Below are positions 11,179-50,504 of a stretch of 64,000 bases of DNA, piece after piece. The DNA comes from Mucilaginibacter rigui (GTDB lineage: Bacteria; Bacteroidota; Bacteroidia; Sphingobacteriales; Sphingobacteriaceae): the NCBI RefSeq assembly GCF_014773275.1, contig NZ_JACWMW010000004.1, positions 248,001-312,000 of the forward strand. The letters are read 5' to 3'. The translations under genes were made by a program, and so were the position numbers. The notes beneath the pieces were generated by a model. That model was not told where the DNA came from. It saw nothing but the letters and a program-made list of their open reading frames with translations, and made no database searches. Each line of letters opens with the position of its first letter. Position 1 is the first letter of the stretch.

Positions 11179-11303
11179 GATGTGCGTACCTCCTGTTTAT
11201 ACAACCTGTGGCGGTATAAAAGGTTTAAGAATAATGTAGTTTTAAACGCGTTTAAACATCAATTCAATCAGAGAATAGTATGAAAAAGTAAGGTTGCGGT
11301 TGT

Positions 11304-12282: not shown

Positions 12283-12495
12283 GTAATCGAATATATTTAA
12301 GTAAGGGCTACCAAAAGTATTTATAATTGTTTCTGCATCTAAAGCTAATCAAAAAAACATATTCAGTTAAAAAAATTTCTTTGTTTGATTGTTTTTTTAA
12401 GTGCTAATAAGCTATAACGTGCCTTTATTGTGTTAATTAAAGTTAAATGTAGTGGCTGATCGCATAAAACCCACATGCTTTAAATATTTTTAACC

Positions 12496-13203
12496 ATGGT
12501 ACGTTACCTCCTTGTTATCTCATTATTGTTTTCATCAGCGGCTTTTGCCCAGGATGCTTTTAACGGGCGGGTACTTGAATTGAAAACCCGGATAGGCCTG
12601 GCAGGAATAAGGGTAGAGAACCTTAACAGCAAAAAAACAACTGTTACCAATAATACGGGTAACTTTTCTATCCCCGCTAAAAGCGGGGACCTGATTACTT
12701 TTAAAGGGTTTGCATATAGCGTTGATACACTGTTGGTAACCGAGCCGTGGGTTAAAGAAGTATTCCTTGAGCCGTTAAATAATGAATTGCGGCCGGTAAA
12801 TATTACCACTACCGAAACCAAGAATATGAGTACTTATTACGATCCGCGGTATCATGGGCAGTCGGTGGTTTACGCCAGAGATAAAAAGGGGTACCTTACG
12901 GGTGGGATTATATGGCGTGTTTGGTATTGGAAAAAAGATGCGAAGAAAAAAGCAAAACTAGAAGAAAAACAACGAAAGTATGATATCATGTATAACATAT
13001 CGCTGGTGTTTATACCCAAAACAATTGGCAAGTACGTACCATTAACCGGCGCGGAACTGGATAACTTTATAACCTTGTACACCCCAACACCGGCTGTTTA
13101 CACCTCAAATGATTTTAACCTGGTGAATTATTTGAACGAATGCTACAAAAAATACCAGGAGCTCCCGCCTGAAAAAAGGCAGCCACCAAAACTGGAAGAG
13201 TAA
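12496..13203 (+). CDS. Secreted carboxypeptidase-like regulatory domain protein
   Basis: A 235-residue paralog of the protein at 1066-1794: signal peptide (1-18, SSAAFAQ), carboxypeptidase regulatory-like domain (about 20-105; NGRVLELKTRIGLAGIRVENLNSKKTTVTNN), then a C-terminal region with a lysine-rich stretch (YWKKDAKKKAKLEEKQRK) and a conserved-looking FIPKTIGKYVPLTG. No TonB barrel follows. Location should be periplasmic or outer-membrane associated. Function unknown. Confidence 0.75.
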   Translation: MVRYLLVISLLFSSAAFAQDAFNGRVLELKTRIGLAGIRVENLNSKKTTVTNNTGNFSIPAKSGDLITFKGFAYSVDTLLVTEPWVKEVFLEPLNNELRPVNITTTETKNMSTYYDPRYHGQSVVYARDKKGYLTGGIIWRVWYWKKDAKKKAKLEEKQRKYDIMYNISLVFIPKTIGKYVPLTGAELDNFITLYTPTPAVYTSNDFNLVNYLNECYKKYQELPPEKRQPPKLEE

Positions 13204-13211
13204 TCACTGTT

Positions 13212-13679
13212 TTATAAGCTAACACCGCTGCTGTAAGTAAACGCATCACCGAAGGCGCTGGTGAGGTGTTTGGTAGCATCGGGTAATTTATCGGCATGTT
13301 TGCGCAGGTAAAAAGTGGCTACACTGGTTGCCAAGGCCGCAGCAGCGCCTATTACCATTCCCTGCAGTATACTTTGTTTGCTTTTCCTGAAAATTATAGC
13401 ACCTACAAAAGCACCTGATGCAATATTGTCGGCAAAGTCAGACAATACTAATGTATCGCTACTATGGTTTGCCCTTGCATGCTCGTTTTCGTTGGCACGG
13501 AATAGTTGGGTAGCCATAGTAGTAACCGGCGATCGCAAAAATATCATACCCGGGAACGACAGCGCGGGGTAAAACCCGGTGTTCATATGCCGTGCAATTG
13601 CAGGTGCAGCGCTTGCTCGTACCCCGGCTATTGCACCTAATCCTAAAGTTTGCCAAATGGGTGTCCTGTAATTGCGCAT
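13212..13679 (-). CDS. DUF4126 family membrane protein
   Basis: A 155-residue glycine/alanine-rich protein resembling DUF4126 (GLGAIAGVRASAAPAIARH; ASGAFVGAIIFRKSKQSILQGMVIGAAAALATSVATFYLRK), with two or three weak membrane segments. I chose the ATG at 13679 because AGGAATAAT stands directly before it; an upstream start at 13706 would add nine residues. Function unknown. It converges with the upstream plus-strand gene with 8 bases between stops. Confidence 0.75.
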   Translation of the reverse strand: MRNYRTPIWQTLGLGAIAGVRASAAPAIARHMNTGFYPALSFPGMIFLRSPVTTMATQLFRANENEHARANHSSDTLVLSDFADNIASGAFVGAIIFRKSKQSILQGMVIGAAAALATSVATFYLRKHADKLPDATKHLTSAFGDAFTYSSGVSL

Positions 13680-13769
13680 ATTATTCCTGTTGATATATAT
13701 AAGCAACAGGGTAGTGGGTGAATGGTTTGGATTTAACCTGGATTAAGTGGATTTTTAGAAATACCCTTT

Positions 13770-13845
13770 GCTCGCGCAAGATTAGCGGGGCGTATCTTGG
13801 TGGGTACAATGCAAGCTTTCAGCTTGCGTCAGCTGAAAGCTGACC
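13770..13845. repeat. Dispersed hairpin repeat, single copy
   Basis: gctcgcgcaagattagcg followed by cgtatctt, then gcaagctttcagcttgcgtcagctgaaagctgacc. It is the reverse complement, with few changes, of the pair of units at 58466-58620. The second half is itself palindromic (gcaagctttcagcttgc; tcagctgaaagctga). A non-coding REP-like family of this genome. Confidence 0.75.
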
Positions 13846-13899
13846 AGATGCGATGACACGAGCTGAAAGCTCGCGCCAGTAATAGAGACAAGACACAAA

Positions 13900-13927
13900 A
13901 AAAGCGATGATCAACATCGCTTTTTAA
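13900..13927 (-). terminator. Terminator of the Mla operon
   Basis: Arms aaaaagcgatg and catcgcttttt around atcaa directly downstream (leftward) of the MlaD gene, with a T-run on the minus strand. Confidence 0.8.
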
Positions 13928-13932
13928 ATTCT

Positions 13933-14922
13933 TTACATCGCTTTCTTTATACTATCCTGTTTGGCTTTTTCGCGTTTCTTAAAAAAACCTTTCAGTAAAA
14001 AGCTGTGCTGTACAGCTTCCAGGTCGTCATTTAGTTTAACCGAGCTTTGTTGCAGGTAGTCTAACGTAGTTTGTACTTTTACGGCTGCTTTAGGGTCATT
14101 AAGTAAAACACCCAGCGCATTATCAGTAGTGTTAAGCTTATTGCTGGCCTTGTTGAGATTGTCGGTTAATATAGTGGCGTTATCAGCAGCCTCTTTTAAA
14201 CGGCCAACCGATGCACGGATCCGGTTAAAGGTAACGGTATCGGTAAGCAGGTTGTCGGCAAAACCGCCTTTAGTATTCATTTTATTGCTAAAGCTGTTTA
14301 AACTTACCGCCATTTGCGCGGCACTTTGTGTAGCGGCTTGCAGGTTACGCATGGTTTGTTTTAACTGCAGGCCCATGGTGCTATCGGCAAGTAAAGTACC
14401 CACTGTACCTTTGCCCGCCAGGATTTGTTTGCTTAACTGCTTAAAATCACTAGTAATGGCCAGTAGGTTTTGGTTGTTTTGCTGCAAGGTTTTCATTACA
14501 TCATCGGTTGATAATAATTTCTCTGATTGTAAAACATCACCATCCTGTACAATAGGTGCCTGCGGCGAACCGCCATCAATCACGATGATCTTGTTACCTA
14601 TCAAACCATCGCTGCTAATACGTACACCCGCGTTGCGGTGAATGTATTGTTGGGTACTGGCATCAATGCTCATTACCACATCAACCTGACCCGGGCCGGT
14701 AAAAGTTAAGTTTTTGATGGTACCTACCTTTACACCAGAGAACCACACGTTGTTCCCTTTTTTCAAACCCGATACATCGTTAAATACCGAACTGATGTGT
14801 ATGCTTTTTACAAAGCTTTTTTGTTGGCCGCCAAGGGTAAGCACGCCTATTACAAACACGGCCACACCGAGCAGTACAAACACGCCTACAATTATTGAAT
14901 TTCTATTTTCTGATGCATCCAT
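13933..14922 (-). CDS. mlaD: MlaD/MCE domain lipid-transport protein
   Basis: A 329-residue substrate-binding subunit of an Mla-type phospholipid transporter. One N-terminal membrane anchor (about 10-30, IIVGVFVLLGVAVFVIGVLTLGG) leads into an MCE domain (about 37-115; VFNDVSGLKKGNNVWFSGVKVG, ISSDGLIGNKIIVI), followed by a long helical region (150-315) likely forming a coiled coil or tube. It is third in the operon after the permease and ATPase genes (18 bases after the latter). It ferries lipid between inner and outer membrane; direction is not deducible. Confidence 0.93.
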   Translation of the reverse strand: MDASENRNSIIVGVFVLLGVAVFVIGVLTLGGQQKSFVKSIHISSVFNDVSGLKKGNNVWFSGVKVGTIKNLTFTGPGQVDVVMSIDASTQQYIHRNAGVRISSDGLIGNKIIVIDGGSPQAPIVQDGDVLQSEKLLSTDDVMKTLQQNNQNLLAITSDFKQLSKQILAGKGTVGTLLADSTMGLQLKQTMRNLQAATQSAAQMAVSLNSFSNKMNTKGGFADNLLTDTVTFNRIRASVGRLKEAADNATILTDNLNKASNKLNTTDNALGVLLNDPKAAVKVQTTLDYLQQSSVKLNDDLEAVQHSFLLKGFFKKREKAKQDSIKKAM

Positions 14923-14940
14923 ATGATAGGGTACTAATAT

Positions 14941-15714
14941 CTATTGTATAAAATTATAATCGTAAAAAGGTTTAACGCGCGGGTCGGTGGTAGCAAATAC
15001 TTCATCGAAAGTGCCCACTCGCTGAAACTGTCCGTCTAAAAGCATCGCTATACGGTCGCCGGTCATTTTAGCACAGGTTAAATCGTGCGTTATAATGATA
15101 GACGAGGTATGGTAGCGTTGCTGCACCTCATTTATCAGGTCGTTTATTTCGATACAGGTAATGGGGTCAAGCCCTGCGGTCGGCTCATCATAAAGCATAA
15201 TTTCGGGGTTCAGTATCAGCGTACGGGCAATACCAATACGCTTGCGCTGCCCACCTGATAGCTCTGATGGCATTTGGTTAATGGTTTGCGAAAGGCCAAC
15301 AGCTTCCAATACCTCTTCCACATTTTTATTGATCTCGGCCCGGGTAAGGCTTTTGCGGTTGCGCACCAGCGGGAACTCCAGGTTCTTGCGCACGGTCATG
15401 CTATCATAAAGGGCGCTGTTCTGAAAAGAGAAGCCTATGCGGATGCGCAGATCCTCCAGTGCGCGCTGGCTAATATGGGTAACATCATTTCCCAAAACCT
15501 CTATAGTGCCTGCATCGGTGGTTAATAAGCCCGATATCAGCTTAATTAATACAGATTTACCCGTACCCGAACGGCCAAGCACCACCAGGTTCTCACCCTG
15601 GTAAAGGTCAAGGTCAATACCACGCAGTACATCATAATCAGCAAAAGATTTTTCAACCCCGCGGATCTTGATAACGGTGTTATTTTTATCGATATGTGCC
15701 TTTTGCTTTTCCAT
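14941..15714 (-). CDS. mlaF: Mla-type ABC transporter ATP-binding protein
   Basis: A 257-residue ATPase driving lipid transport. Walker A GRSGTGKSVL, signature LSGGQRKR, and Walker B IMLYDEPTAGLDP are intact. The C-terminal part (GTFDEVFATTDPRVKPFYDYNF) is typical of the MlaF/Ttg2A subfamily. It lies 6 bases after the permease gene and 18 before the MCE gene. Confidence 0.95.
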   Translation of the reverse strand: MEKQKAHIDKNNTVIKIRGVEKSFADYDVLRGIDLDLYQGENLVVLGRSGTGKSVLIKLISGLLTTDAGTIEVLGNDVTHISQRALEDLRIRIGFSFQNSALYDSMTVRKNLEFPLVRNRKSLTRAEINKNVEEVLEAVGLSQTINQMPSELSGGQRKRIGIARTLILNPEIMLYDEPTAGLDPITCIEINDLINEVQQRYHTSSIIITHDLTCAKMTGDRIAMLLDGQFQRVGTFDEVFATTDPRVKPFYDYNFIQ

Positions 15715-39451: not shown

Positions 39452-40885
39452 CTATTTGTTTTTGATGAATGCGGCAAAGCCGAATAGCGATACCATCAGC
39501 ACACCCAATGCGGCCAGCATACTTACTATATCGCGCGCGTTTTTACCGGCCCAGCTCATGCCGAAGTACTTATGTAAAAATATAAAAGATAAGCCTTCGG
39601 CGCGGTCAATACCGGCAACTTTTGTGGCCAGTTGTGATGTGGTGGTTTCGATATACCAGTTTTCGCCGTTGGGATAGTTTACCTTTTGTACAGGCAGGCG
39701 CTTGTTGATGAACCCGTATTCGTTATCAAACTGGCGGATCTGACTGATGGTTGTTTTACCTTTTACCTGTGCTGCACCTGTGTGGTAAAACCCGCTCAGG
39801 TAACCGGCATATTGCATATCGCCATTAATTAATGCGGCACCTGTTAGGGTATTGAAATAACTTACGTTCTTCTTAATGTCGCTCAGCTGGTAATAGGTGC
39901 TATCATTAAACTTAACCACGTTTATGTTTTTAACCAGGCTGTCGGCAATGGGCAGGGCAAGGTTTGAAAAAGTAAGATCTTTACTGTTGATGTGTTGCGC
40001 GTAAACTTTCGGCGCCGGGCCATCATTATGTAGTTTTACGATGAGGTGGAAAGCCCCGCTGATGACGAACGTAAGCATCACAAATGATACGATCAGCCCC
40101 AGCTGCCGGTGAAAACGGTGTACAAAACGGGTGTCCTTGCGGTTATCAGCCCGGCGGTTTTGTGTAGCTGTTTTAAACTTTTTCCAAAACAAGCCGTAAA
40201 TAGTTAATCCGCTTAAAAGTGAAAAAAGCATTGCCACCACAACAAGCAGCATAACCACATTGCGGAACTGATTGCCGCCAATGGCTGCCAGAAAGTCCCA
40301 GGTATGCAGTTGCTCAAAAACAGTGAGCATAGCCTTACGGGTATTGTTATTGAATGTACCCATGCGGCTTTGGCCGGTTTCAATGTAAACATCCATCCCG
40401 TCGGGCCGGTCAAAAGCTACCTTCCAAACAGGCAACAAGTGGTTAATGGGCTGGTAATGCCCGTCGAAGGTTTTTTGCAGGCTGATGCTTTTTATTTTTG
40501 ATGTGCTATCCTGCGTAAAATACCGGGCCAGGTAAGTGGCGTAAAGCTTATCGCCGTGGGCCAATATCTTCCCGGTATTGGCCGAGTAATAATTGTACAC
40601 GCTATCTGTACTTAAAACCTGGTAATAAGTGTCGTTATTAAAACTTACCTGCCCAAAGTTTATCAAACTGCTGATGTTGTTTTGAGCAAGCACCTGCTGA
40701 ACAGATAATGCGGGTTTGGTTTTAGCAGGCACGGGTTTATATACCTCCAGCGCTATCACCGGCCTGAACCAGTTTGACATGAACGGATGCGACAGGCCGC
40801 TCAGCGTCCACATCATAACAGGGATAAGGGCTGTTAAGCCCAATATCCGATGCCATTTATAAAAATTTTGTTTTGCTGTTGCCAT
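39452..40885 (-). CDS. PepSY domain-containing inner-membrane protein
   Basis: A 477-residue protein of the PepSY-associated TM family, often reductase-like and linked to siderophore or metal uptake. Membrane helices at about 13-35, 205-235, 260-283 and 445-470; two PepSY-like periplasmic segments between (YYSANTGKILAHGDKLYATYLARYF; YFNTLTGAALINGDMQYAGYLSGFYH). It is 2 bases from genes on both sides, so co-translated with the TonB receptor and the metal-binding lipoprotein. Confidence 0.9.
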   Translation of the reverse strand: MATAKQNFYKWHRILGLTALIPVMMWTLSGLSHPFMSNWFRPVIALEVYKPVPAKTKPALSVQQVLAQNNISSLINFGQVSFNNDTYYQVLSTDSVYNYYSANTGKILAHGDKLYATYLARYFTQDSTSKIKSISLQKTFDGHYQPINHLLPVWKVAFDRPDGMDVYIETGQSRMGTFNNNTRKAMLTVFEQLHTWDFLAAIGGNQFRNVVMLLVVVAMLFSLLSGLTIYGLFWKKFKTATQNRRADNRKDTRFVHRFHRQLGLIVSFVMLTFVISGAFHLIVKLHNDGPAPKVYAQHINSKDLTFSNLALPIADSLVKNINVVKFNDSTYYQLSDIKKNVSYFNTLTGAALINGDMQYAGYLSGFYHTGAAQVKGKTTISQIRQFDNEYGFINKRLPVQKVNYPNGENWYIETTTSQLATKVAGIDRAEGLSFIFLHKYFGMSWAGKNARDIVSMLAALGVLMVSLFGFAAFIKNK

Positions 40886-40887
40886 GA

Positions 40888-43236
40888 TTAATGTTTTGCA
40901 AATGAATAACTGATACCCAATGTGTACACTCTTGGCGGCGCGGCGTTGTAGGTATCGCCGTATTGGTTGCTGATTACTGTGGTTGCGTAAAGCTTATTGG
41001 TTAAGTTAAGCACATTAAACCACATGCCTGCGCCTTGCAATGGCCCGTTTTTTACATCGAAGCCGGTACGCAGGTTAAAAATATCGTAGCCTGCATAGGT
41101 TTTGGTATTGGCCGGGTTTGTAAAATAGGAGGCGATGTGCTGCCATTCGCCCGCTATCCTGAAACCGTTGATGTACGCGGGTTTGTAGGTGATCTCGGAG
41201 TTGGCTATCCAGTTTGGTGCATTGTTCATGCGGTTGCCGTTATAAACTTTAACCGTGTTGGCGCCTGTGCTGTAGTTAGTTGTTACCTCGCTATAATCAA
41301 TATACGTATGCCTGGCGTTGGTGCCGCTAAACCTAAAGCTCAGTTCGTTTACCGGCGCGTAGGCTACCGAATATTCTACTCCGCGGTGGCGGGTTGCGCC
41401 TGCATTTTGGTTTTGGGTGGTATTATCGGGCAATAGCTGGTTAATGATCTCATTACGGCCTTCCAAATCGTAAAAGGTAATCTCTAAATACATCTTCTTG
41501 TTCATGGCGGTGAACCAGCCGCCGGCTTCGTAGTTGTTAAATGTTGCCTGTTTTAACGGGGTAAGCTGACGTGCGCTGTACAAGTCACCGGTTTCTGGCG
41601 GCTGGAAACCTACACTGTAATTGGCATATAAACCTTTGTTATTGCCAAAATTGTAGGTAAGCCCAAGCTTTGGCGCTACGATGTTAAAATCGTTGGTTTC
41701 CTGCTGTTTGTATTTGGTGCTGCCTGGGGCAATGCCATTGGTGAAATTGTAGTGGATACGATCGTAACGTAAGCCCATCACAATGCGCAGTGGCTCGGCA
41801 GGTTTGATCTCGTACTGCGCGTAAGCCGCGGTATTGAACAGCTTGATACGGTAGTTATCGATATAATTACCGGTAGGGGTGTAACCCGTATAAAAGTTAT
41901 TGGCTACATCCTTTTGTATATTCAAAAACTTGGCGTAATAGCTGCTGGGGCTGTTGTCGGCATAAACACCAACAATTAACCTAGAGTGCAGGAAATCCAG
42001 ATCCTGCCTGTGCTGTGCCAGTAAACCAAGGCTGTGGAAGCTCTGGTCGTTCTGCTGACCGTTAGAGCTAACATAGTTACCCGCATTATCCCTTACATCT
42101 GATATATAATAACTCGGTAACTGCGCGGTAGAGTTATTGCGATAAAATAGGGTAAGGAAAGTACTGCTTTGCGCGTTCCATGTATGCTCGAGCTTGGTAT
42201 TGGCCCTAAAGGCTTTTACCTTGCGGTAGGTAAAGCGCTGGTTTGCACCATAGGTGCGGCTGTAAAACTTCGCGCTGTCCAAACTTCCCGGTGTTTGGGT
42301 GTTCAGGTAATTATAGGCTACGGATGTGGTTAAACGCGTTGCGTTATCAAAATCGTAAGTGGTTTTAAAATTGCCCGAGTATTTATCAAAGTTGGTATAA
42401 TCCTGCCAGCCATCGCGTTGTTTGGCTATGTAGCCGCCAACATACAAGCCAAATTTGCCTGTGCTGAAACCTCCGTCGGCATCAACACGGCGATAGTGGT
42501 AGTTGTCGCCCTGTACAGATACATTGCCCGCGTAACCCGCAGGTGGCCCCTGTGTAATAAAGTTGATGGCCCCGCCAATAGCGTTGCTGCCGTAAAGTGA
42601 TGATGCCGGGCCTTTGATCACCTCGATATCGCGCACGCCGCTCATATTGATCTCATAAAGCGAATTGTGGTTAAAGATACCGGTAGGGCGAATGGGCAGG
42701 CCATCTTCCATATATAAATACAATGCGTTGTAAGTAATAGGCTGGCGGATAGCCATGGTGTGCTGCTCGTTCCCCAGATCCACCATGTACACGCCGGTTA
42801 CTTTGTTCAGCAATTGGTAAAGTGCGGTGGCTTTGGTGTCATGAATTTGGGTGGCGTTTATTTTACTGATAGCGATGGGTGCATCCTGCCTGGCCTGGCG
42901 TTCGCGGCTGGCCGATATAACTACCTGTTGGAGGTCGATGGTTGAGGGCTCCAGTGCTATGTCTACAGATTCGGTGCCGTTAAGGGTATAGATATTATCG
43001 GCAAAACCTATCATACTTAAACGGATGGTTTTAACATTGTTGGTTTGTATGGTGAACTTGCCTTTGGCATTTGTGGTAGTCAGCAATTTGCCATCGGCAG
43101 TGTTGCTGATCATTACACCAGCTACGGCTTCGTTTGTTCGGGCGTCGGTTACTGTGCCGCGCAGGCTGCTTTGGCCAAAGGCAATAGCAGGCGCAAAACA
43201 CAGTATTATATATAATATTAGTGTAGGTGTTTTCAT
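40888..43236 (-). CDS. TonB-dependent outer-membrane receptor, metal or siderophore type
   Basis: A 782-residue receptor. ATG at 43236 gives a good signal peptide (TLILYIILCFAPAIAFGQ). Then a carboxypeptidase-like domain (about 24-105), plug (IAISKINATQIHDTKATALYQLL; IEVIKGPASSLYGSNAIGGAINF) and beta-barrel ending in LGISYSFAKH. Unlike SusC it has no SusD partner; with PepSY and heavy-metal-binding neighbours, copper or ferric/siderophore uptake is likely. The leader contains two hairpins, gcccta-tgct-tagggc (43253-43268) and tatgc-aaaa-gcata (about 43285-43298). Confidence 0.9.
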   Translation of the reverse strand: MKTPTLILYIILCFAPAIAFGQSSLRGTVTDARTNEAVAGVMISNTADGKLLTTTNAKGKFTIQTNNVKTIRLSMIGFADNIYTLNGTESVDIALEPSTIDLQQVVISASRERQARQDAPIAISKINATQIHDTKATALYQLLNKVTGVYMVDLGNEQHTMAIRQPITYNALYLYMEDGLPIRPTGIFNHNSLYEINMSGVRDIEVIKGPASSLYGSNAIGGAINFITQGPPAGYAGNVSVQGDNYHYRRVDADGGFSTGKFGLYVGGYIAKQRDGWQDYTNFDKYSGNFKTTYDFDNATRLTTSVAYNYLNTQTPGSLDSAKFYSRTYGANQRFTYRKVKAFRANTKLEHTWNAQSSTFLTLFYRNNSTAQLPSYYISDVRDNAGNYVSSNGQQNDQSFHSLGLLAQHRQDLDFLHSRLIVGVYADNSPSSYYAKFLNIQKDVANNFYTGYTPTGNYIDNYRIKLFNTAAYAQYEIKPAEPLRIVMGLRYDRIHYNFTNGIAPGSTKYKQQETNDFNIVAPKLGLTYNFGNNKGLYANYSVGFQPPETGDLYSARQLTPLKQATFNNYEAGGWFTAMNKKMYLEITFYDLEGRNEIINQLLPDNTTQNQNAGATRHRGVEYSVAYAPVNELSFRFSGTNARHTYIDYSEVTTNYSTGANTVKVYNGNRMNNAPNWIANSEITYKPAYINGFRIAGEWQHIASYFTNPANTKTYAGYDIFNLRTGFDVKNGPLQGAGMWFNVLNLTNKLYATTVISNQYGDTYNAAPPRVYTLGISYSFAKH

Positions 43237-43357
43237 AAAAACGTATAAGCTTGCCCTATGCTTAGGGCATAAATAAATTACAGTTGTATGCAAAAGCATA
43301 GCAGATACAGGGCTTAGGCCGGCATCGAAAACTGTATTAAAAAAAAGAAGGGTGTTT

Positions 43358-43729
43358 TTATGAGAGCCGTGGCGGCTGGAAGATATTGCGGGATAGCTCC
43401 GGCAGTTGAATACGATAGTTCGGCACTTTGGTTACCGATAATAAAACCTGGTAGAACTTAACCTTAGCCGGCTGATTGTAGTTGGCCTCCTGGAACAGGT
43501 TTTTTTGTGCCTGCCGATCTTCGGTGTTCTGCTTGTCTTCGGCTTGTTTTACTTTTTTCATAAAGTAACACTTGCCATTGCAATGTAACTGGGGTTTATT
43601 ACGGTTTTCGCAAAGTTTTGTGGCGATGTAGTTGCGGTTCAGCTCGAACCCCGCGTAGATAAAAAAACGCGAGAAATTAGCCGATACAAGCGACACAATT
43701 AATAAATATGCGGTTAAACGTTGTAACAT
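43358..43729 (-). CDS. Small CxGKCY-motif protein of the metal operon
   Basis: A 123-residue protein with an N-terminal hydrophobic helix (about 5-25) and the cluster C40-ENRNKPQLH-C50-NGK-C54-YFMKKVKQ, then a charged Gln/Lys-rich helix. Similar short proteins stand before TonB receptors in other Bacteroidota, and the three cysteines suggest metal binding. ATG at 43729 chosen; a longer reading needs TTG. It lies 121 bases upstream of the receptor gene, probably first in the operon. Function unknown. Confidence 0.75.
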   Translation of the reverse strand: MLQRLTAYLLIVSLVSANFSRFFIYAGFELNRNYIATKLCENRNKPQLHCNGKCYFMKKVKQAEDKQNTEDRQAQKNLFQEANYNQPAKVKFYQVLLSVTKVPNYRIQLPELSRNIFQPPRLS

Positions 43730-43787
43730 GCGGCGCAAAGGTAAGCGTTGTTAATTATTATAACAACCGGTTATTCACAATACGTAT

Positions 43788-43838: not shown

Positions 43839-44087
43839 TTAAGCAAGGTTGGATGTGCATCCATAAATACCTGTATAGCCGTGTGATCTGCAATAGTTTT
43901 GCGAATCAACGAGTGAATTACAACAAACCCCATAGAATGATATAACATCACTTAATGGATCTGATGATACGCCACACGATACATAGTTTTCGCACAAAAT
44001 TGGCCCTGGTTGTGTTGGATCCGGCGGAAGGCCACCACCCAAAACGTGTTTCATCTCAACCCTGCTGAGTTTCATAAATTTCGACAT
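43839..44087 (-). CDS. GG-leader Cys-rich secreted peptide 1
   Basis: An 82-residue precursor. Residues 1-18 (MSKFMKLSRVEMKHVLGG) form a double-glycine leader of the bacteriocin/RiPP type, normally removed by a C39 peptidase during export. The 64-residue core has six Cys (CENYVSC, GVCC, NYC, YGC) and ends GCTSNLA. Two paralogs at 47387-47659 and 49856-50071 share the leader but not the core. Six Cys and an adjacent VKOR-thioredoxin gene suggest three disulfides. It follows that gene with a candidate structured RNA between. Role (bacteriocin, signal or toxin) unknown. Confidence 0.82.
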   Translation of the reverse strand: MSKFMKLSRVEMKHVLGGGLPPDPTQPGPILCENYVSCGVSSDPLSDVISFYGVCCNSLVDSQNYCRSHGYTGIYGCTSNLA

Positions 44088-44117
44088 AAAATAAAAATTT
44101 AATAATTAACTACCTTT

Positions 44118-44239
44118 GCCGTAACCACGCCCCGGCAATTAGGCTGCATATATGTTAAAGTGCATGCTCCTTTACTTTCGCGAGAAGTTTATTTTATTGC
44201 TATCCTTTTAAATATTCATAATTTTAAGGCAGGGCGTGG
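44118..44239 (-). ncRNA. Candidate structured RNA leader, copy 1
   Basis: Upstream of peptide 1, the transcript would contain CCACGCCC near its 5' end and GGGCGTGG near its 3' end (44231-44238 and 44125-44132 on the + strand), able to pair over about 100 nt, with internal GCAT...ATGC and CTTCTCGCGAAAG hairpins and a GCCG...CGGC stem whose loop contains the 3' pairing strand. The same layout occurs at 47690-47819 and 50100-50229. Sequence supports pairing; function is inferred. Confidence 0.5.
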
Positions 44240-44268
44240 CTTTTTGCACCCCTCCCTAAAAGTTTTTT

Positions 44269-45858
44269 TTATTGCTGCACCAGCAGGTATTTAATATCTT
44301 GTATGCGGTAAACATCCGGTAAACGATGCCCGTTAATTAGGAGGGTGGGAGTGGCCCTTACTTCGGCCAGGTTGCACCATTCCTGTTGCCTGTCAAGCTT
44401 GTAATATTTTGTTTCGTCGAGGGTTACAGGGTGTGCTTTGGCCCAGGCATCGTAATCTTTGTGTTTTTGATCGTACCAGTCGTTAAGGGCTTGTTTTACC
44501 TTGCTTTTATCAGCCAGTTCATTTAATGCCATCAGGTGCCTGGTTACGGGTGTTTTAAGATCGGCATCCGTGTTATTGGCCGTAAATACAAGCCGTACCT
44601 GTATATCGGGGTTACGGTTTAGCCATTCATCCAAAACATGGTGAGTTTTGGCACATGGCGGGCAGTAGGGGTTGCTTACCATAGTGATGATATTACCGGC
44701 TTCAACGTTGCCTAAAACAATACTCCAGTCTTCGGCCGGTACAGCATATTTGGGCTGCTCTTTTAGGGCGGTGTTAAACAAGTCGGTGTTATATTTAAAA
44801 TCGCGCAGCTGGCCTTTAAGCGTGTTTAATTGTTGTGATTTTAGCAGCAATGGCTTTAACAACAGCCACAGCCCAACAGGCAGGGTAAGGCAAATAAGCA
44901 ATCCGGCAAGTTCCGTAAGGTTTAAAAGCTGGAACGGCGCGTTTAAAAACCCCACCATAGGTATAAACTCCAGCCAAAGCAAGGCCTGCACGGTACAGCA
45001 TAAAACACACCATTGTTTGGCAACACGCGCCTGGTGATAGATAGAGTATACGGTATAAGGCAAACTAATAATATTGAGTATTGCCAAAGCCTGTAGCATG
45101 GCAGTATTTGTACCTGCAAACAGCAGGGCCAGCCAGGTACCTGTAAAGTAGAAAAAGCCCACCTCGCTCCAGCTAAGGCCATCAAAAACATTGGCGGCTT
45201 TGGATGCCAGGATGGCGTTACAATTGGTTTTACCGCCGCCGCCGCAAAGCGTTTGCACCAGCGGGTTGTTACGATCTATACTTTGTATAAGCAACAATAC
45301 CGAAACGGTAACCCCGCCGGTTTTAAACAACGCCGCCAGCATAGTTTGCCAGCTGCTAAATATTGGGGAGAAGGTTATGATTGATGCTAAAAGCGCAAAG
45401 GCCAGCAAACCTAATGCAAGGGTATAACGCAGCCCGGTGGTATTAAAACCACTGCTTTTTTTAACAGATGCGGTTTCGGGCATTTCTACAGCCAGCACCA
45501 CGCCGGTAAACGAATTGGCAAAATCATCAAAACTTAGGGTGTAGTTTTTGCGGCTTTGGTCGGTAGCGGTAACCTGCTTTGCGGATATGGCGGTGATGAG
45601 CAAAAACTCCGAACCCGACTTATTGGTGTGGGCAATAAAAGGTACGGGTACTTCGGGCAGTTCGTCCTTAGTGATGCGGTACGCGCCCGATTCGATGCCA
45701 AAATTGGTAAGCACATCATTTAGGGCCAGCAGGTTTGGGTAATCGGGGTGGATGTTTAGTTCGTCGGTTATTTGTTCGGCGGTAACTGATGGATCGATAA
45801 TTTTGACTAATTCAATGAGTACCGCGTCGGCATTTGGGCGTTTGTAAAAGATAGACAT
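44269..45858 (-). CDS. VKOR-thioredoxin fusion with C39-like N-terminal domain
   Basis: A 529-residue membrane protein. Residues 1-125 resemble a C39 peptidase (PDYPNLLALNDVLTNFGIES; PFIAHTNKSGSEFLLITAI; LSFDDFANSFTGVVLAVE) but the catalytic Cys region is NADAVLIELV and the His is absent, so it should be inactive. Residues 145-340 form a VKOR four-helix core with loop Cys C205/C213 and redox C284-V-L-C287. Residues 370-529 form a thioredoxin domain with C399-P-P-C402. It should create disulfides in the periplasm with quinone as acceptor. It sits directly upstream of GG-leader peptide 1, its likely client. Confidence 0.88.
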   Translation of the reverse strand: MSIFYKRPNADAVLIELVKIIDPSVTAEQITDELNIHPDYPNLLALNDVLTNFGIESGAYRITKDELPEVPVPFIAHTNKSGSEFLLITAISAKQVTATDQSRKNYTLSFDDFANSFTGVVLAVEMPETASVKKSSGFNTTGLRYTLALGLLAFALLASIITFSPIFSSWQTMLAALFKTGGVTVSVLLLIQSIDRNNPLVQTLCGGGGKTNCNAILASKAANVFDGLSWSEVGFFYFTGTWLALLFAGTNTAMLQALAILNIISLPYTVYSIYHQARVAKQWCVLCCTVQALLWLEFIPMVGFLNAPFQLLNLTELAGLLICLTLPVGLWLLLKPLLLKSQQLNTLKGQLRDFKYNTDLFNTALKEQPKYAVPAEDWSIVLGNVEAGNIITMVSNPYCPPCAKTHHVLDEWLNRNPDIQVRLVFTANNTDADLKTPVTRHLMALNELADKSKVKQALNDWYDQKHKDYDAWAKAHPVTLDETKYYKLDRQQEWCNLAEVRATPTLLINGHRLPDVYRIQDIKYLLVQQ

Positions 45859-45924
45859 AGGCTGTTTGCTTGGTTCAATAAACTTATTTATTTAAAAGCA
45901 ACAAACCAATAAGTATTTTAAAAT

Positions 45925-45940
45925 CACGTAGTTTTACGTG
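45925..45940. promoter_or_regulatory. Palindrome CACGTA-N4-TACGTG, copy 1
   Basis: A perfect 6+6 inverted repeat about 70 bases upstream of the VKOR start codon. Identical copies lie at the same distance from the VKOR relic starts at 48009-48024 and 50418-50433, so the spacing as well as the sequence is kept. Candidate operator or upstream terminator. Confidence 0.5.
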
Positions 45941-46091
45941 GTTTTTGAGGGGTATGTAATGTGTTTTTGACTTTAGTGAAAGTGAAATATTTTTTTACGC
46001 ATTAAATGGTATGTTTAAAGAAAATGTGCGAATTGCAGGCAACTTACTATAGGAAGAGCCCGGCTTGCCCGGCCTTGCGAAAAAAGCTATT

Positions 46092-46178
46092 TTATATTTT
46101 AAGCATGTTTTCCAGGTTGTCTAATTTAACGTTGCGGCCAATAAGTTGGCCCTTGTTATTTAGTAGATAACCTTTCTC
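46092..46178 (-). pseudogene. C-terminal relic of a TlpA-like gene (1)
   Basis: In a frame different from the intact gene next to it, 28 codons read EKGYLLNNKGQLIGRNVKLD then NLENMLKI and a stop, a typical C-terminal strand-helix end of a TlpA/thioredoxin protein (compare ILVDQQGNIVGRNIYGEQLE in the neighbour). No upstream part remains: the intact TlpA stop codon lies 8 bases before it. It looks like the leftover of a duplicated gene removed by internal deletion. Confidence 0.7.
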
Positions 46179-46185
46179 TATCCAA

Positions 46186-47331
46186 TTAATTGTTTGATTT
46201 TAAAAACTGCTCAAGTTGTTCGCCATAAATATTTCTTCCTACAATATTACCCTGTTGATCAACCAGTATATTTGCCGGAATTTCTTTTAGATTGAGAAAC
46301 TTTGCAAGCGGCGAATTAGTAGCTTTAAGATCAGAGTACTGTGGCCATCTTATTTTATCTTCCCTGATCGCTTTTTTCCATAATGAAACACCATTGTCTA
46401 AAGAGAACCCAATAATTTTCAACCCTTTTTTTGCATACTCATTCTCTTTACCGCGTAGTTCAATGTTTATCAACCTGCACGGGCCGCACCAACTTGCCCA
46501 AAGTTCAATCAGTGTAAAACGCTGCCTGGTATAAAATTTTTTGTTAAGTTGTTCAACTTTCCCAAGGGTATCAACAACATTTATTGAGGGGATGGCTTTC
46601 TGCTCATCGGCAGCCAACTTTAAATCGGTGGGGTTATCCAGATTTTTTAACAGTTTTAGTTTTTCAAAAAGTTCCTTACCATAGATACTGCTTTTTATTT
46701 TAAAAGAGAGCTCATTGTATGATGCTATATAGTTTTTATACGAAAAATCAGGCGCGGCTGGTAGTAAATAAGCTGTAGCCGGGTTATCGGGCGCATCTTT
46801 TGCGAGCTTTGTATAAGCGTTTCTGATCAGGGAATCTATACCCGCTGCCTTTTTTTTATACGCTAAAGCAGATGTTTCATTTATAGCCGAATCAGCTTTG
46901 TTCAGGTAATGCGCTTTCTGTTGATAAAGAGCTACCTGGTTATTTACAAAATTGTGCCATGTGTTATGGATGCGGGAATTAGTTTGGATAGCTGTTTCAT
47001 ATACATACCGGCCCGGACTAATTTCTTTTAGAATAAGTTGAGTATTATACACACTGCTATCCAAAAAAAACTTCAGCCCTGAGCCTTTAAATTCGAGCAT
47101 CCCGGCATCGGGCTCAATAATTTCGCCTTTTATATAAAAGGTGTTGTTTTTAATTACCGAATGAAACGTTTTTTTTTGTTTGCTTACTGCCAAAAAAATG
47201 GTGTCTCCATTATTTAAAGCACTGGTAATACCCGGTAGATTTTTTACTTCACCCTTTATTTCAAAAACAACCTGTGCCTGTATCGCTGATGAAAACAGAA
47301 TAAATACTAAAATTAATTTAAGATACTTCAT
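46186..47331 (-). CDS. TlpA-like thioredoxin with DUF4369-like N terminus
   Basis: A 381-residue secreted protein. Signal peptide 1-20 (SSAIQAQ); DUF4369-like beta domain (about 22-115; FEIKGEVKNLPG); helical middle (120-250); TlpA thioredoxin domain (about 255-381) with C282-G-P-C285 in LIELWASWCGPCRLI and a complete C terminus. It is periplasmic or lipid-side and likely keeps thiols reduced or acts as a disulfide exchange partner. Located between peptide genes 1 and 2, immediately downstream of peptide 2 on the same strand, so probably dedicated to the Cys-rich peptides. Confidence 0.87.
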   Translation of the reverse strand: MKYLKLILVFILFSSAIQAQVVFEIKGEVKNLPGITSALNNGDTIFLAVSKQKKTFHSVIKNNTFYIKGEIIEPDAGMLEFKGSGLKFFLDSSVYNTQLILKEISPGRYVYETAIQTNSRIHNTWHNFVNNQVALYQQKAHYLNKADSAINETSALAYKKKAAGIDSLIRNAYTKLAKDAPDNPATAYLLPAAPDFSYKNYIASYNELSFKIKSSIYGKELFEKLKLLKNLDNPTDLKLAADEQKAIPSINVVDTLGKVEQLNKKFYTRQRFTLIELWASWCGPCRLINIELRGKENEYAKKGLKIIGFSLDNGVSLWKKAIREDKIRWPQYSDLKATNSPLAKFLNLKEIPANILVDQQGNIVGRNIYGEQLEQFLKSNN

Positions 47332-47386
47332 AGATTTAAATTGATAACTATTGCATGCTAACCAGCATACAATAGCTATTTAAAAT

Positions 47387-47659
47387 TTATTGTGGGGTAC
47401 TCGATGCGTAAGTAGATGAATAGGCAGAACATAATGGTGCCCCATCACAGGCTGCTTTACAAGAGGATGAACAATCACCCTCACTAGCAGATGCGCTTGC
47501 CGGCAGGGGGTAATCCACTTTTACATTTTGTGCACCAGTTAATGTACACGAACATGATTTAGTGCCCGTTCCTCCTCCACAATTTGGATCGCCCGGCATA
47601 CATAATCCTCCTAATACATTTTTCATCTCAGCTCTGCTGAGTTTGTTAAATTTTGACAT
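47387..47659 (-). CDS. GG-leader Cys-rich secreted peptide 2
   Basis: A 90-residue precursor with leader MSKFNKLSRAEMKNVLGG and a 72-residue core containing eight Cys (LCMPGDPNC, KSCSC, GDCSSSCKAAC, PLC) and an Ala/Ser-rich C terminus. The longer reading to 47722 only adds residues from the conserved upstream element and is rejected, because all three paralogs share the MSKF start. The leader DNA is almost identical to peptide 3, while the core is unrelated. Upstream lies RNA element copy 2; a TlpA gene follows after 55 bases. Confidence 0.8.
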   Translation of the reverse strand: MSKFNKLSRAEMKNVLGGLCMPGDPNCGGGTGTKSCSCTLTGAQNVKVDYPLPASASASEGDCSSSCKAACDGAPLCSAYSSTYASSTPQ

Positions 47660-47689
47660 AAAAACAACGTTGTAATTTAGTTTTTCTTT

Positions 47690-47819
47690 GCCGTAACCAC
47701 GCCCCGGCAAATTTGGCTGCATGTATTTTTAAAGTGCATGCTTCTTTACTTTCGCGAGAAGTTTCTTTTATTGCTGTACCCTCAGGTATTTAATATATCA
47801 TTACAGGCAGGGCGTGGTT
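47690..47819 (-). ncRNA. Candidate structured RNA leader, copy 2
   Basis: Same architecture as copy 1: ACCACGCCC at 47811-47819 and GGGCGTGGT at 47696-47704 (minus-strand sense) can pair, enclosing GCATG...CATGC and CTTCTCGCGAAAG stems; GCCG...CGGC brackets the 3' strand. In this copy ACCACGC can also pair with an upstream GCGTGGTTT (hairpin at 47812-47833), giving two mutually exclusive folds, as in attenuators. It lies 31 bases before the peptide 2 start. Confidence 0.5.
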
Positions 47820-47943
47820 TTTATAAACCACGCTGTATCCTTTAAAAAATTCATTAATGTATTGCTGAACAATATTTGCCCGGCAGGTGTGGCCGGTGTT
47901 AAAGTGCCGAACGGGCACCAGGGAGTTTGCAAAAAGTTGACAT
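47770..47943 (-). pseudogene. Relic of a VKOR-type gene (copy A)
   Basis: At 47943 an ATG opens MSTFCKLPGARSAL then stop, matching the start of the intact protein (MSIFYKRPNADAVL) at M, S, F, K, P, A and L. Upstream sequence is collinear with the intact gene's promoter region. At 47770-47796, 24 of 27 bases match the 3' end of the intact VKOR gene (44271-44297). The 1.5 kb in between is gone. A decayed, internally deleted copy. Confidence 0.7.
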
Positions 47944-48008
47944 AGGCTGTTGCTTGGTTCAATAAACTTATTTATTTAAAAGCAACAAACCAATAAGTAT
48001 TTTAAAAT

Positions 48009-48024
48009 CACGTAGTTTTACGTG
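48009..48024. promoter_or_regulatory. Palindrome CACGTA-N4-TACGTG, copy 2
   Basis: Identical to the copy at 45925-45940, at the same distance from the start codon of the VKOR relic. It may now serve transcription of peptide 2. Confidence 0.5.
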
Positions 48025-48028
48025 GTTT

Positions 48029-48168
48029 TAAGCGAGATGTATAAATGGTTGTTATTTTTAACAAAATATATTTAATCTATGATTATAAAATATAATATTT
48101 AGGGAAATGTCATAAGGTTGCCGGTAATTAAAAGCAGTAGCGCCCGGATTGTCATGCCTTGAAAAAAC
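48029..48168. other. Intergenic remainder before TlpA relic 2
   Basis: AT-rich sequence between the long repeat and the TlpA relic. I see no gene in it. Together with the repeat it makes a 613-base gap between peptide 2 and the next TlpA gene. Confidence 0.5.
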
Positions 48169-48252
48169 CTATTTTACACTCTTTAGCATTTTTTCCAAGC
48201 CATTTAAATCAACATTGCGCCCAATGAGTTCGCCTTTAAGTAATAAATGCGT
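48169..48252 (-). pseudogene. C-terminal relic of a TlpA-like gene (2)
   Basis: 27 codons read THLLLKGELIGRNVDLNGLE then KMLKSVK and a stop. They match relic 1 (LIGRNVxLxxLExMLK) better than either intact TlpA C terminus, so both relics descend from one lost gene type. It lies 20 bases after the intact TlpA gene's stop codon. Confidence 0.68.
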
Positions 48253-48272
48253 CTATCAAGGTCTTGCTTAGT

Positions 48273-49781
48273 TTATTTTAATAATGAAGCTATCATCAAC
48301 TCCAACGTACGGCGGTTGCTATTATTGATACGAAAATTTCTGAAAACAATCTTTCCATCTTTATCTATCAGGAAATTTTCAGGCTCACTCTGCACATTGT
48401 AGTATTTAGCAGCAAAGTCTGTACTGCCGCGTAATGGGATGAAGGAATATTTATTGTTTTTCATAAAAGGCATCACATAAGCATCTTGACCGGGAAATAC
48501 ATTTATACCTAAGTACGAGACATTTTCGCCTTTGAATTTATCAATCACAACCTGGAAATGCGGAAACTCCTCCTTACAGGGCCCACAACCAGGAAACCAA
48601 AAAGTCAGCAATACTACTTTCCCTTTCAGGTTGTTCAAATTTAACTTGCTGTTACTGGTATAAAGGCCCAACTCAAATGGATAAGCAGGAACTGCTATAT
48701 TATTCCTAATATTCTGAATATCTTTATCCACTTGCTTTTTATCCTTTCCAATTTTCTTTCCATACAATTCAAGAGCCGCATAAAGCTCGTCAGTAGGTAA
48801 TTTTGCAAATTTTACAGCCAGGGTGTCATATGCAGTTTTAACGTAACCGGCTTTTTCCAACAGATGAGCTTTCTTTAACGCAATAAAATCATCAATGTAA
48901 TTAAACTTTGGAAGTTTTACTTGTTTAAGTTCCGTAAGGGCATCTTTGTAGTTTTGATTTTGCTCTGATTTATTAATCATTATTAATGATTCTGCCACTT
49001 GTTTTCTAATCTTCCAATCCTGGCTATCCCCCATCTCGTTTATTAAAGCTATAGCCTTTTCAGGTTTAGTTTGCAGATAAATATCGGCTAATGCTATCAT
49101 CCCCGACGATGACCAGTCAAATTTTTGAGGCGGATATAATTTGCGGAGATCTTCGAAATATTGTGTTCTTTCATCAAGATCAGTGGCATCTTCCCCCAAC
49201 CAATATAAAGCCTGGGCACCACGTTCATTTTCCGGGAAGCGTTTAACAAACTCAAAGACTTTCTGTTTATATTTTGAGGGATCGCTATCCTTAAAAGACG
49301 TAAGATAACCATACGCATAAAGGGCATTTGAAGAATCGGCGAGAGCGGCTTTTTTCATATATTCATTTGACAGATCGTTTTGTCCCCTCATGCCGGCATC
49401 CGCCGAAAGCATAAACCATACTTTAGCGTTTTTGGGTTCCATTGCGGCTGCCTTTAGCAAATACTCTTTTGCTTGCGGCATTTCGGCTCTATAATATACT
49501 GTACCAAAGGCCAACGGAATATTTATATTTTCTGGATATTTTTTTATCCATACTTTGTATTGGGATATAAGAAGAGGGTTATTTAATCCCATTGCGTATA
49601 TATAGGCTTTGTATGCGCTCTGACTATTCGGATCGGCCTCAACCGCTGTTTGGGCTTTTTTAATTTCTTCAGGGGATGCTGGCCCAGTTCGGACAGGTGC
49701 TTGGGCAAAAACCAACCCGGAAGAACATAGTGTAATTAATAAAACTACATATACCACATATTTCAATTTATTATTCATCAT
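48273..49781 (-). CDS. TlpA-like thioredoxin with helical-repeat N terminus
   Basis: A 502-residue secreted protein. Signal peptide about 1-27 (CSSGLVFAQ); TPR-like helical region (about 35-345; YLLKAAAMEPKNAKVWFMLSADAGM, ALYAYGYLTSF); TlpA thioredoxin domain (about 365-502) with CGPC near 397-400 in LTFWFPGCGPCKEEFPHF and the cis-Pro loop SEPENFLIDKDGKIV. It lies downstream of peptide 3 on the same strand and, like the TlpA at 46186, probably handles disulfides of exported peptides. The double ATG gives an alternative start one codon in. Confidence 0.87.
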   Translation of the reverse strand: MMNNKLKYVVYVVLLITLCSSGLVFAQAPVRTGPASPEEIKKAQTAVEADPNSQSAYKAYIYAMGLNNPLLISQYKVWIKKYPENINIPLAFGTVYYRAEMPQAKEYLLKAAAMEPKNAKVWFMLSADAGMRGQNDLSNEYMKKAALADSSNALYAYGYLTSFKDSDPSKYKQKVFEFVKRFPENERGAQALYWLGEDATDLDERTQYFEDLRKLYPPQKFDWSSSGMIALADIYLQTKPEKAIALINEMGDSQDWKIRKQVAESLIMINKSEQNQNYKDALTELKQVKLPKFNYIDDFIALKKAHLLEKAGYVKTAYDTLAVKFAKLPTDELYAALELYGKKIGKDKKQVDKDIQNIRNNIAVPAYPFELGLYTSNSKLNLNNLKGKVVLLTFWFPGCGPCKEEFPHFQVVIDKFKGENVSYLGINVFPGQDAYVMPFMKNNKYSFIPLRGSTDFAAKYYNVQSEPENFLIDKDGKIVFRNFRINNSNRRTLELMIASLLK

Positions 49782-49817
49782 TACGTTTGATTACAATCAT
49801 AAAAACAGAAACTTTAA

Positions 49818-49856
49818 TAAACAAGGCTGGCTGTTTAAGCCAGCCTTGTTTATTTT
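49818..49856 (-). terminator. Terminator after GG-leader peptide gene 3
   Basis: Perfect arms aaacaaggctggct and agccagccttgttt around gttta immediately downstream of the peptide stop, so transcription of the TlpA gene beyond it would depend on readthrough or its own promoter. Confidence 0.85.
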
Positions 49857-50071
49857 TATGCACAATAATTATAATAAAAATTGGCATCTTTTGGACACTT
49901 CTTCGAATAACAACTTTTTCCAACCGCACAGGTTCCTAAGGTTCCCCCACATTCATTATCAGGGCAATCCTCACCTCCGCCGCCATCACCTGGTTCAATA
50001 GGCCCACCACCATAAGTTCCACCTAAAACATCTCTCATCTCAGCTCTGCTGAGTTTGTTAAATTTAGACAT
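49856..50071 (-). CDS. GG-leader Cys-rich secreted peptide 3
   Basis: A 71-residue precursor with leader MSKFNKLSRAEMRDVLGG and a 53-residue core: a Gly/Pro/acidic stretch (TYGGGPIEPGDGGGGED) then six Cys (EDC, NEC, GTC, KSC, KKC, YC) ending NYCA. The C-terminal Cys-Ala end and even Cys count suit a compact disulfide fold. Upstream are RNA element copy 3 and a VKOR relic; a strong terminator follows. Confidence 0.82.
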   Translation of the reverse strand: MSKFNKLSRAEMRDVLGGTYGGGPIEPGDGGGGEDCPDNECGGTLGTCAVGKSCYSKKCPKDANFYYNYCA

Positions 50072-50099: not shown

Positions 50100-50229
50100 G
50101 CCGTAACCACGCCTCGGCAATTTTGGCTGCATGTTTTTTAAAGTCCATGCTTCTTTACTTTCGCGAGAAGTTTCTTTTATTGCTGTACCCTCAGGTATTT
50201 AATATATCATTACAGGCAGGGCGTGGTTT
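50100..50229 (-). ncRNA. Candidate structured RNA leader, copy 3
   Basis: As copy 2, with GGCGTGG in place of GGGCGTGG (cctcgg change), which keeps seven pairs with CCACGCC, and GCATG...CATGC retained although the inner stem base differs (gtcc instead of gtgc). The competing GCGTGGTTT/AAACCACGC hairpin is also kept. Located 29 bases before the peptide 3 start. Confidence 0.5.
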
Positions 50230-50352
50230 TTATAAACCACGCTGTATCCTTTAAAAAATTCATTAATGTATTGCTGAACAATATTTGCCCGGCAGGTGTG
50301 GCCGGTGCTAAAGTGCCGAACGGGCACCAGGGAGTTTGCAAAAAGTTGACAT
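50180..50352 (-). pseudogene. Relic of a VKOR-type gene (copy B)
   Basis: ATG at 50352 opens the same short MSTFCKLPGARSAL frame, closed here by TAG instead of TAA, and the 27-base match to the VKOR 3' end is kept at about 50180-50206. Same deletion structure as copy A, so the deletion preceded the duplication. Confidence 0.68.
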
Positions 50353-50417
50353 AGGCTGTTGCTTGGTTCAATAAACTTATTTATTTAAAAGCAACAAACC
50401 AATAAATATTTTAAAAT

Positions 50418-50433
50418 CACGTAGTTTTACGTG
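50418..50433. promoter_or_regulatory. Palindrome CACGTA-N4-TACGTG, copy 3
   Basis: Third identical copy, at the right end of the long repeat. Confidence 0.5.
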
Positions 50434-50504
50434 GTTTTTGAGGGGTGAATTACGGAGTTGTTAATTTAAAAGAATTCTTATTTTGCCCTTGTGTTAAAAA
50501 TAAA

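Follow-up and report, generated by a model that had tools for sequence, protein, structure and literature searches.

Here, we describe a locus in a 64,000-nucleotide (nt) stretch from the genome of the soil bacterium Mucilaginibacter rigui (hereafter, the window; positions 248001-312000 of contig C9, in a host genome of 4.71 Mb and 14 contigs), where the minus strand from 43839 to 50071 encodes three short peptides with double-glycine (GG) leaders, one VKOR-type membrane protein, and two TlpA-like proteins. We consider it likely that this locus is the hub of a leader-docked disulfide oxidase that serves a dispersed, hypervariable peptide repertoire. The candidate oxidase joins a C39-like domain (CLD), a VKOR core, and a thioredoxin domain in one protein (CLD-VKOR-Trx; P0004, 529 amino acids (aa), 44269..45858, minus strand), and its fold, its lost protease residues, its linkage to GG peptides, the cysteine parity of these peptides, and a reversal of its loop charges are supported by computation. 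The positions and strand of all six genes, with 6, 8, and 6 cysteines in the three peptides, are as given in a first-pass annotation of this DNA, which had read the locus as a system for secreting diversified disulfide-bonded peptides; co-occurrence across related genomes and an exporter found elsewhere in the same genome, both presented below, support that reading.

The assignment of CLD-VKOR-Trx draws on Pfam, an AlphaFold model, PDB matches, and conserved cysteines. Pfam identified Peptidase_C39 (PF03412, E 1.9e-13), VKOR (PF07884, E 1.9e-12, over the cut-off), and Thioredoxin_4, and the protein runs from a dead C39-like domain (residues ~5-129) through an extra helix (141-163) and the VKOR core (165-308) to a DsbA/ScsC-like thioredoxin domain (369-529), with redox cysteines in a loop pair (Cys205/213), a CXXC (284/287), and a thioredoxin CPPC (399-402). 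In the model (mean predicted local distance difference test score, pLDDT, 82; predicted template modeling score, pTM, 0.53), the C39-like domain matched the LahT C39 protease with leader (6mpz; Z 15.7, root-mean-square deviation 2.8, 123 aligned), as well as the PCAT1 and ComA peptidase domains and the C39-like domain 3zua (Z 13.7), the VKOR stretch matched VKOR structures (Z 13-14), and the thioredoxin stretch matched ScsC/BdbD/DsbA-like proteins (Z up to 18). Among 59 CLD-VKORs, the protease Cys position held Asn in 54 and Cys in none, the His was found in none, and the Asp was kept in 25, whereas all 42 peptidase-containing ABC transporter (PCAT) exporters in the comparison set keep Cys, His, and Asp; all six redox cysteines were kept in 59 of the 59. 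Judged by these residues, the C39-like domain of CLD-VKOR is protease-dead. The first-pass annotation had seen no C39 ABC exporter in the window and placed the exporter elsewhere in the genome, which stands, but a leader-binding type of fold does lie in the window, because the VKOR protein itself begins with a C39-like domain (PF03412). Two other C39 arrangements were seen, namely a VKOR joined to a strongly matching C39 domain (E 2e-29) in one protein of 552 aa (L278, 8386-10044) and, in the host's own genome, a 479-aa protein whose C39 domain keeps its Cys (SCGMAC) and that is without an ABC part (L035, 8910-10349).

The predicted exporter was found, as a PCAT of 725 aa (C39 with DCGPTC, ABC_membrane, and ABC_tran) encoded with HlyD at C9:121.75-125.28 kb, ~167 kb from the VKOR gene and behind the same promoter motif (see below). 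At E <=0.005, a leader profile gave 13 matches in this genome, three in the window and 10 outside it on contigs C6, C7, C9, C10, C11, and C12, with cysteine counts that were all even (6 in ten, 8 in two, and 2 in one); four of these 13 leaders sit in the profile itself, and the nine outside the profile have 6 Cys (seven), 8 Cys (one), and 2 Cys (one). Beyond this threshold, the matches left out were two short frames (E 0.7 and 1.35, with 4 and 5 Cys), part of a long frame, and a broken copy on contig C8. A PF07884 search of the genome found one VKOR, and a search of the genome for DsbB gave no match. Given 13 leader matches against one VKOR, no DsbB match, and one PCAT, a scattered peptide repertoire appears to share a single oxidase and a single exporter, which suggests how a Gram-negative bacterium with no DsbB found could oxidize peptides with 6-8 Cys. 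The earlier description of an oxidase encoded beside its substrates needs a change here, as the enzyme is not dedicated to its three neighbors, with 13 leader matches in the genome and no other VKOR found there. Prochlorosins are arranged alike, with one promiscuous leader-guided enzyme, many dispersed precursors, and hypervariable cores, though lanthionines are formed there and disulfides, as we propose, here.

Across 100 Mucilaginibacter genomes (the window's own included), 58 matched the VKOR, 56 of them strongly (E <1e-60). The leader profile was found in 29 of these 56 VKOR genomes versus 1 of the 44 without VKOR (Fisher p 1.2e-8), or in 16 of 43 versus 1 of 44 (p 2.6e-5) once the 13 genomes that supplied its leaders were removed, and PCAT (E <=1e-100) was found in 53 of the 56 versus 12 of the 44 others (p 5e-13); these p-values ignore kinship. 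The reading thus survived the check, suggested in the first-pass annotation, of whether the leader never co-occurs with VKOR/TlpA genes, and the lone non-VKOR genome with the leader (G018) has a completeness of 61% and carries a PCAT plus a weak partial VKOR match. Separately, VKOR loci were collected from the genus, Pedobacter, and other families, with 134 distinct by an exact 100-residue stretch only, such that near relatives remain, and 132 left after two with short flanks were dropped. A same-strand GG peptide with at least four core Cys lay within 3 kb of the VKOR gene at 101 of these 132 loci, compared with one of 132 on the opposite strand and none of 132 with flanks shuffled once each, a result on which chance leaders were rejected. 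The fetched stretches held PCAT in 97, HlyD in 89, and a TlpA-type match in 61; VKOR, peptides, PCAT, and HlyD are usually neighbors in relatives, and TlpA is a less constant partner than the other components. In a phylum sample, CLD-VKOR occurred in 40 of 395 genomes and 12 of 171 genera, and 15 of 20 stretches taken from this sample show VKOR, GG peptide, and PCAT together, with several Bacteroidales stretches likewise. Disulfide-rich secreted peptides of this class are predicted to be widespread in Bacteroidota and findable by the leader together with CLD-VKOR. Other recurrent neighbors were a large protein with the look, by eye, of an outer-membrane receptor (12 loci), a glycosyltransferase 61 family (seven), and a LanC-like family (five), the latter two labels resting on one representative each, and no immunity gene was recognized.

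The three window precursors, all on the minus strand, are peptide 1 (P0001, 43839..44087; 82 aa with a 64-aa core and 6 Cys), peptide 2 (P0002, 47387..47659; 90 aa with a 72-aa core and 8 Cys), and peptide 3 (P0003, 49856..50071; 71 aa with a 53-aa core and 6 Cys). Between the three units, leader DNA is 80-91% identical and the 120 nt preceding the leaders 81-89%, whereas core DNA identity is 46-49%, equal to that of shuffled cores, and the core protein alignment scores of the three pairs were matched by 54, 171, and 44 of 200 shuffles. A near-identical 18-residue leader on unrelated cores, as first noticed from the sequence, is thus confirmed beyond chance, and because leaders are alike while cores are at the shuffled level, the cores would either have been swapped in or be changing too fast to leave a trace. 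By eye, the three leaders match L(-12)xxxE(-8)[L/M](-7)...GG, the leader type across the system is like L-S-R-x-E-M-K-N-V-x-G-G, and a C39 leader consensus of Leu(-12)xxxGlu(-8)Leu(-7) is given in a passage of PMC6363468. Among 148 leaders, L at -12 was found in 139, E/Q at -8 in 140, and M/L at -7 in 136, of which only the narrowing counts, since these leaders were pre-selected by a looser form of the same pattern. Further, cysteine counts were even in 146 of 149 distinct peptides (4 in 20, 6 in 95, 8 in 28, 10 in two, and 12 in one; the remaining three have 7), counting only peptides with at least four core Cys.

Two other explanations of the peptides bear on these data. The leaders matched the NCBIfam models leader_Chryseo (NF047798) and TIGR04149 at E 3e-4 to 0.22, with which they share a similar GG motif, but all matches were under the curated cut-offs, with best scores of 18.4 against 25 bits for TIGR04149 (radical-SAM-modified) and 12.7 against 27 bits for a class I lanthipeptide leader model. 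Such weak matches, and the LanC-like representative in a protein cluster near five related loci (L240, 13931-15031, plus four others), would fit precursors of ribosomally synthesized and post-translationally modified peptides (RiPPs) of the lanthipeptide or radical-SAM type whose modifying enzyme lies elsewhere. We hold this to be very improbable, as no leader match reaches its cut-off (the genome was not searched for LanB/LanM or radical-SAM enzymes), the recurrent partner is VKOR, and lanthionine chemistry needs no even Cys count; the assignment was rejected on the cut-offs. Alternatively, the peptides might serve in metal binding or stress, with metal coordinated by their even cysteines, and VKOR and TlpA might act on other envelope proteins. 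A TonB receptor, a PepSY-TM protein, and a small Cys-containing protein do adjoin the locus at its 3' side (window 39455-43738, minus strand), with the look of a metal-uptake operon and of kinds seen with metal uptake, but the commonest partners over the 132 loci are this oxidase and the GG-leader exporter, and the near-strict evenness fits disulfide pairing, which leaves metal binding improbable. In Mucilaginibacter sp. L294, which has the nearest named VKOR (91% identical), the VKOR gene lies between the same outer genes and all three peptide units are missing; hence, the units come and go while VKOR stays, and the metal-uptake-type genes, kept there without the units, were rejected as part of the system.

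Two side observations concern peptide cysteines. At L060 (9690-10548), three tandem GG peptides between VKOR and PCAT have knottin-like Cys spacing (C-C-CC-C-C), a likeness of spacing only, because PDB matches to spider knottins were at E 0.03 or worse and the top match was unrelated. A second CLD-VKOR in L294 (L180, 10001-11951) is directly followed by a GG peptide with 7 Cys, the rare odd count.

With one helix (141-163) before the VKOR core, the model would place the C39-like domain together with the loop Cys pair, the CXXC, and the thioredoxin domain on the same side of the membrane. Across 145 CLD-VKORs, this redox side carries a mean of 12.6 Lys+Arg in the counted stretches against 0.9 on the other side and also has the longer loops. 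The loop means of these proteins are 3.92 (Cys loop), 0.20 (between transmembrane helices 2 and 3), 1.98 (before CXXC), and 0.62 (between helices 4 and 5), compared with 1.60, 2.32, 0.24, and 3.24, in the same order, for 25 VKORs without a C39-like domain, and the sign of the charge difference is positive in 145 of 145 CLD-VKORs and negative in 23 of these 25. The controls derive from the 30 best-scoring PF07884 loci fetched, minus two with a C39-like domain and three without an aligned CXXC, one of which had been read in a wrong frame, with several of the 25 from the same genera; of the two outliers that score like CLD-VKORs, L310 comes from a CLD-VKOR with a frameshift, of which it is the C-terminal part, and L307 is a true exception. 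Because the loop charges are reversed relative to ordinary VKORs, the positive-inside rule makes the redox side of CLD-VKOR probably cytoplasmic, in agreement with where the leader can be met. CLD-VKOR would then be an inverted VKOR that occurs in nature, and one open to experiment. Bacterial VKORs ordinarily work outside the cytoplasm, and natural inverted VKORs occur in archaea. An inverted VKOR/DsbB has served as a laboratory tool for cytoplasmic disulfides (Hatahet and Ruddock 2013, as cited in passages of PMC5471842 and PMC4460558), which is alike in that a VKOR can work facing the cytoplasm, but engineered, whereas the protein here, if we are right, is natural and leader-guided.

We lean, if only somewhat, toward a natural cytoplasm-facing VKOR with a dead C39 domain that acts before export as a leader-guided "disulfide synthetase," with one enzyme and one exporter for hypervariable peptides encoded genome-wide. 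Several observations speak against our overall reading. No peptide was found within 3 kb at 31 of the 132 VKOR loci, 27 of the 56 VKOR genomes gave no leader match at E 1e-4, and a PCAT relative scoring >600 bits occurs in ten genomes of the genus where this VKOR is not strongly matched. In three Bacteroidales loci, a diverged C39-like domain and VKOR occur without the thioredoxin domain (L274, 8283-9596; L275, 9124-10197; L276, 9098-10479), and the stretches fetched there held no PCAT and no plausible GG peptide, so the C39-like domain is not always tied to GG peptides, and these proteins are possible general cytoplasmic oxidases. The confidence of helix 141-163, on which the sidedness in the model depends, is low (pLDDT ~48-60), and charge bias is no proof of topology, because human VKORC1 breaks the positive-inside rule, as described in part of PMC11208910. 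Finally, both TlpA-like proteins, P0005 (381 aa, WCGPC; 46186..47331, minus strand) and P0006 (502 aa, GCGPC, N-terminal part weakly TPR-like; 48273..49781, minus strand), carry plausible Sec signal peptides by eye, so part of the redox work would be periplasmic.

The VKORC1 exception and the TlpA signal peptides, together with the usual placement of bacterial VKORs, would suit a VKOR/thioredoxin protein that faces the periplasm and oxidizes peptides after PCAT has cut and exported them, its C39-like domain being a relic or a tether for PCAT rather than for the leader. We regard this as rather unlikely, since the loop charges are opposite to those of VKORs without the domain from the same phylum, since the model with its extra helix places the C39-like domain on the side of the redox sites while the leader is available only in the cytoplasm, and since, at two of the three Bacteroidales loci whose VKOR protein has no thioredoxin domain, the VKOR gene adjoins a gene for a small thioredoxin that, by eye, has no signal peptide.

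For the favored cytoplasm-facing enzyme, we infer leader docking, cytoplasmic oxidation, the export path, the role of TlpA, and the biological purpose. Cytoplasmic precursors would be captured through their leader by the protease-dead C39-like domain of CLD-VKOR-Trx, whose thioredoxin domain would then oxidize the cysteines of the tethered core, with electrons passing to the VKOR Cys pairs and on to the membrane quinone; disulfides would be made before export, because the loop charges suggest that all parts of the oxidase face the cytoplasm. The active C39 domain of the single PCAT, as expected from its family, would cut after GG and export the peptide with HlyD, and periplasmic TlpA proteins, at some loci, may reshuffle or reduce wrong disulfides. 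As the leader is constant and the cores differ, new peptides could therefore plug in anywhere in the genome. The products would most likely be antagonistic and bacteriocin-like. If the leader-guided cytoplasmic reading is true, enzymatic disulfide formation would count as a leader-directed RiPP-type modification, and disulfide-rich peptides could usefully be produced by combining the fixed leader with freely chosen cores and oxidation in the cytoplasm.

Among known systems, the bacteroidetocin loci (class IIf; Coyne et al. 2019) are comparable. Passages of PMC6671954 give their order as five-transmembrane protein, GG peptide, thiol oxidoreductase, and C39-ABC exporter, and report that removing the gene for the transmembrane protein, the peptide, or the thiol oxidoreductase lowers toxin activity. 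These passages describe a similar gene order, a Cys-containing GG-leader peptide, and, as here, no recognized immunity gene, but bacteroidetocins A and B have 4 Cys (at least 2 in others), leaders of 15-16 aa, and products of 42 aa, whereas the window system, compared by description, has 6-8 Cys, an 18-aa leader, unrelated cores of 53-72 aa, and dispersed precursors. The window VKOR is fused to a dead C39 and a DsbA-like domain, while the five-transmembrane protein of the bacteroidetocins is called "unknown" in those passages. A bacteroidetocin-like order with VKOR as the transmembrane protein is found in relatives (e.g., L045, L037, and L038), PCAT being separate in the window genome, and CLD-VKORs without the thioredoxin domain occur in Bacteroidales. 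CLD-VKOR could explain the required but unexplained transmembrane protein. As an analogy, the bacteroidetocin deletions give systems of this kind their best experimental support and make the general idea less novel. The C39-like domain of HlyB-type exporters (in part of PMC6363468; PDB 3zua) is likewise a protease-dead C39 fold that holds its substrate on the cytoplasmic side, but is fused to an ABC exporter instead of a disulfide oxidase. Bacterial VKOR-thioredoxin fusions such as Synechococcus VKOR (PDB 4nv5) share the VKOR core, two Cys pairs, and a C-terminal thioredoxin-fold domain with the window protein, which differs in its extra N-terminal C39-like domain and helix and in its reversed loop charges. 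Among the open-access literature matches listed, we recognized no description of a C39-domain-VKOR fusion or of a GG-leader disulfide system, and what looks new here is the dead C39 domain fused to a probably inverted VKOR, along with the dispersed set of hypervariable precursors.

The minus strand of the locus also holds traces of its assembly. VKOR, unit 2, and unit 3 are each preceded by an 88-nt block that contains the motif CCACGTAAAACTACGTGATTTT, with exact motif matches at 45920..45941 (C9:293920-293941), 48004..48025, and 50413..50434, respectively, and the 300-nt blocks 5' of peptide 2 (47726..48025) and peptide 3 (50135..50434) are copies of each other at 99% identity. Between motif and peptide in units 2 and 3 lie ~45 nt like the start of the VKOR gene (47899..47943 and 50308..50352; 65% identity over 49 columns) and its final 29 nt (47768..47796 and 50177..50205; 26 of 29 bases). 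Each TlpA gene is followed by a leftover 3' end from a second TlpA gene (46083..46169 and 48165..48237), with 81-83% and 82-84% identity, respectively, to the 3' ends of the same two TlpA genes on contig C8. The earlier statement that the strand carries nothing besides the six genes is thus inexact, because of these VKOR and TlpA remnants. From the same remnants, the simplest history would be growth of the locus through duplication of a promoter-VKOR-peptide-TlpA unit, after which most of the extra VKOR and TlpA copies were lost.

In the host genome, the motif occurs at 10 sites with <=3 mismatches (reversed control, 0), six at system loci (VKOR, unit 2, unit 3, the PCAT exporter, a lone GG peptide at C7:598141, and a locus on contig C8) and four elsewhere, partly hairpin-like; as an exclusive operator of the system it was rejected on these four. 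An ancient origin was likewise rejected, with the ACGTA-N4-TACGT core (<=1 mismatch) present within 400 nt 5' of only two (L037 and L038) of the 58 VKOR genes in L036-L093. At one off-system site (L106 on C6, 9493-10979), the motif lies inside a palindrome 2 nt behind the gene of a LuxR-type response regulator that follows a histidine kinase gene, a pair that is a possible regulator of the system, unless the motif there is merely a terminator-like element. At another (L107 on C8, 9518-9561), two back-to-back motif copies form a 44-nt near-palindrome between genes without a visible link to the system. At 9523-15170, the C8 locus (L104, G000:C8:345500-365400) has the promoter block and, after it, what is left of a VKOR gene, a GG-peptide copy with a frameshift, and a row of four TlpA-like genes, two of them checked by Pfam; from this arrangement, it is a decayed unit with an expanded TlpA array.

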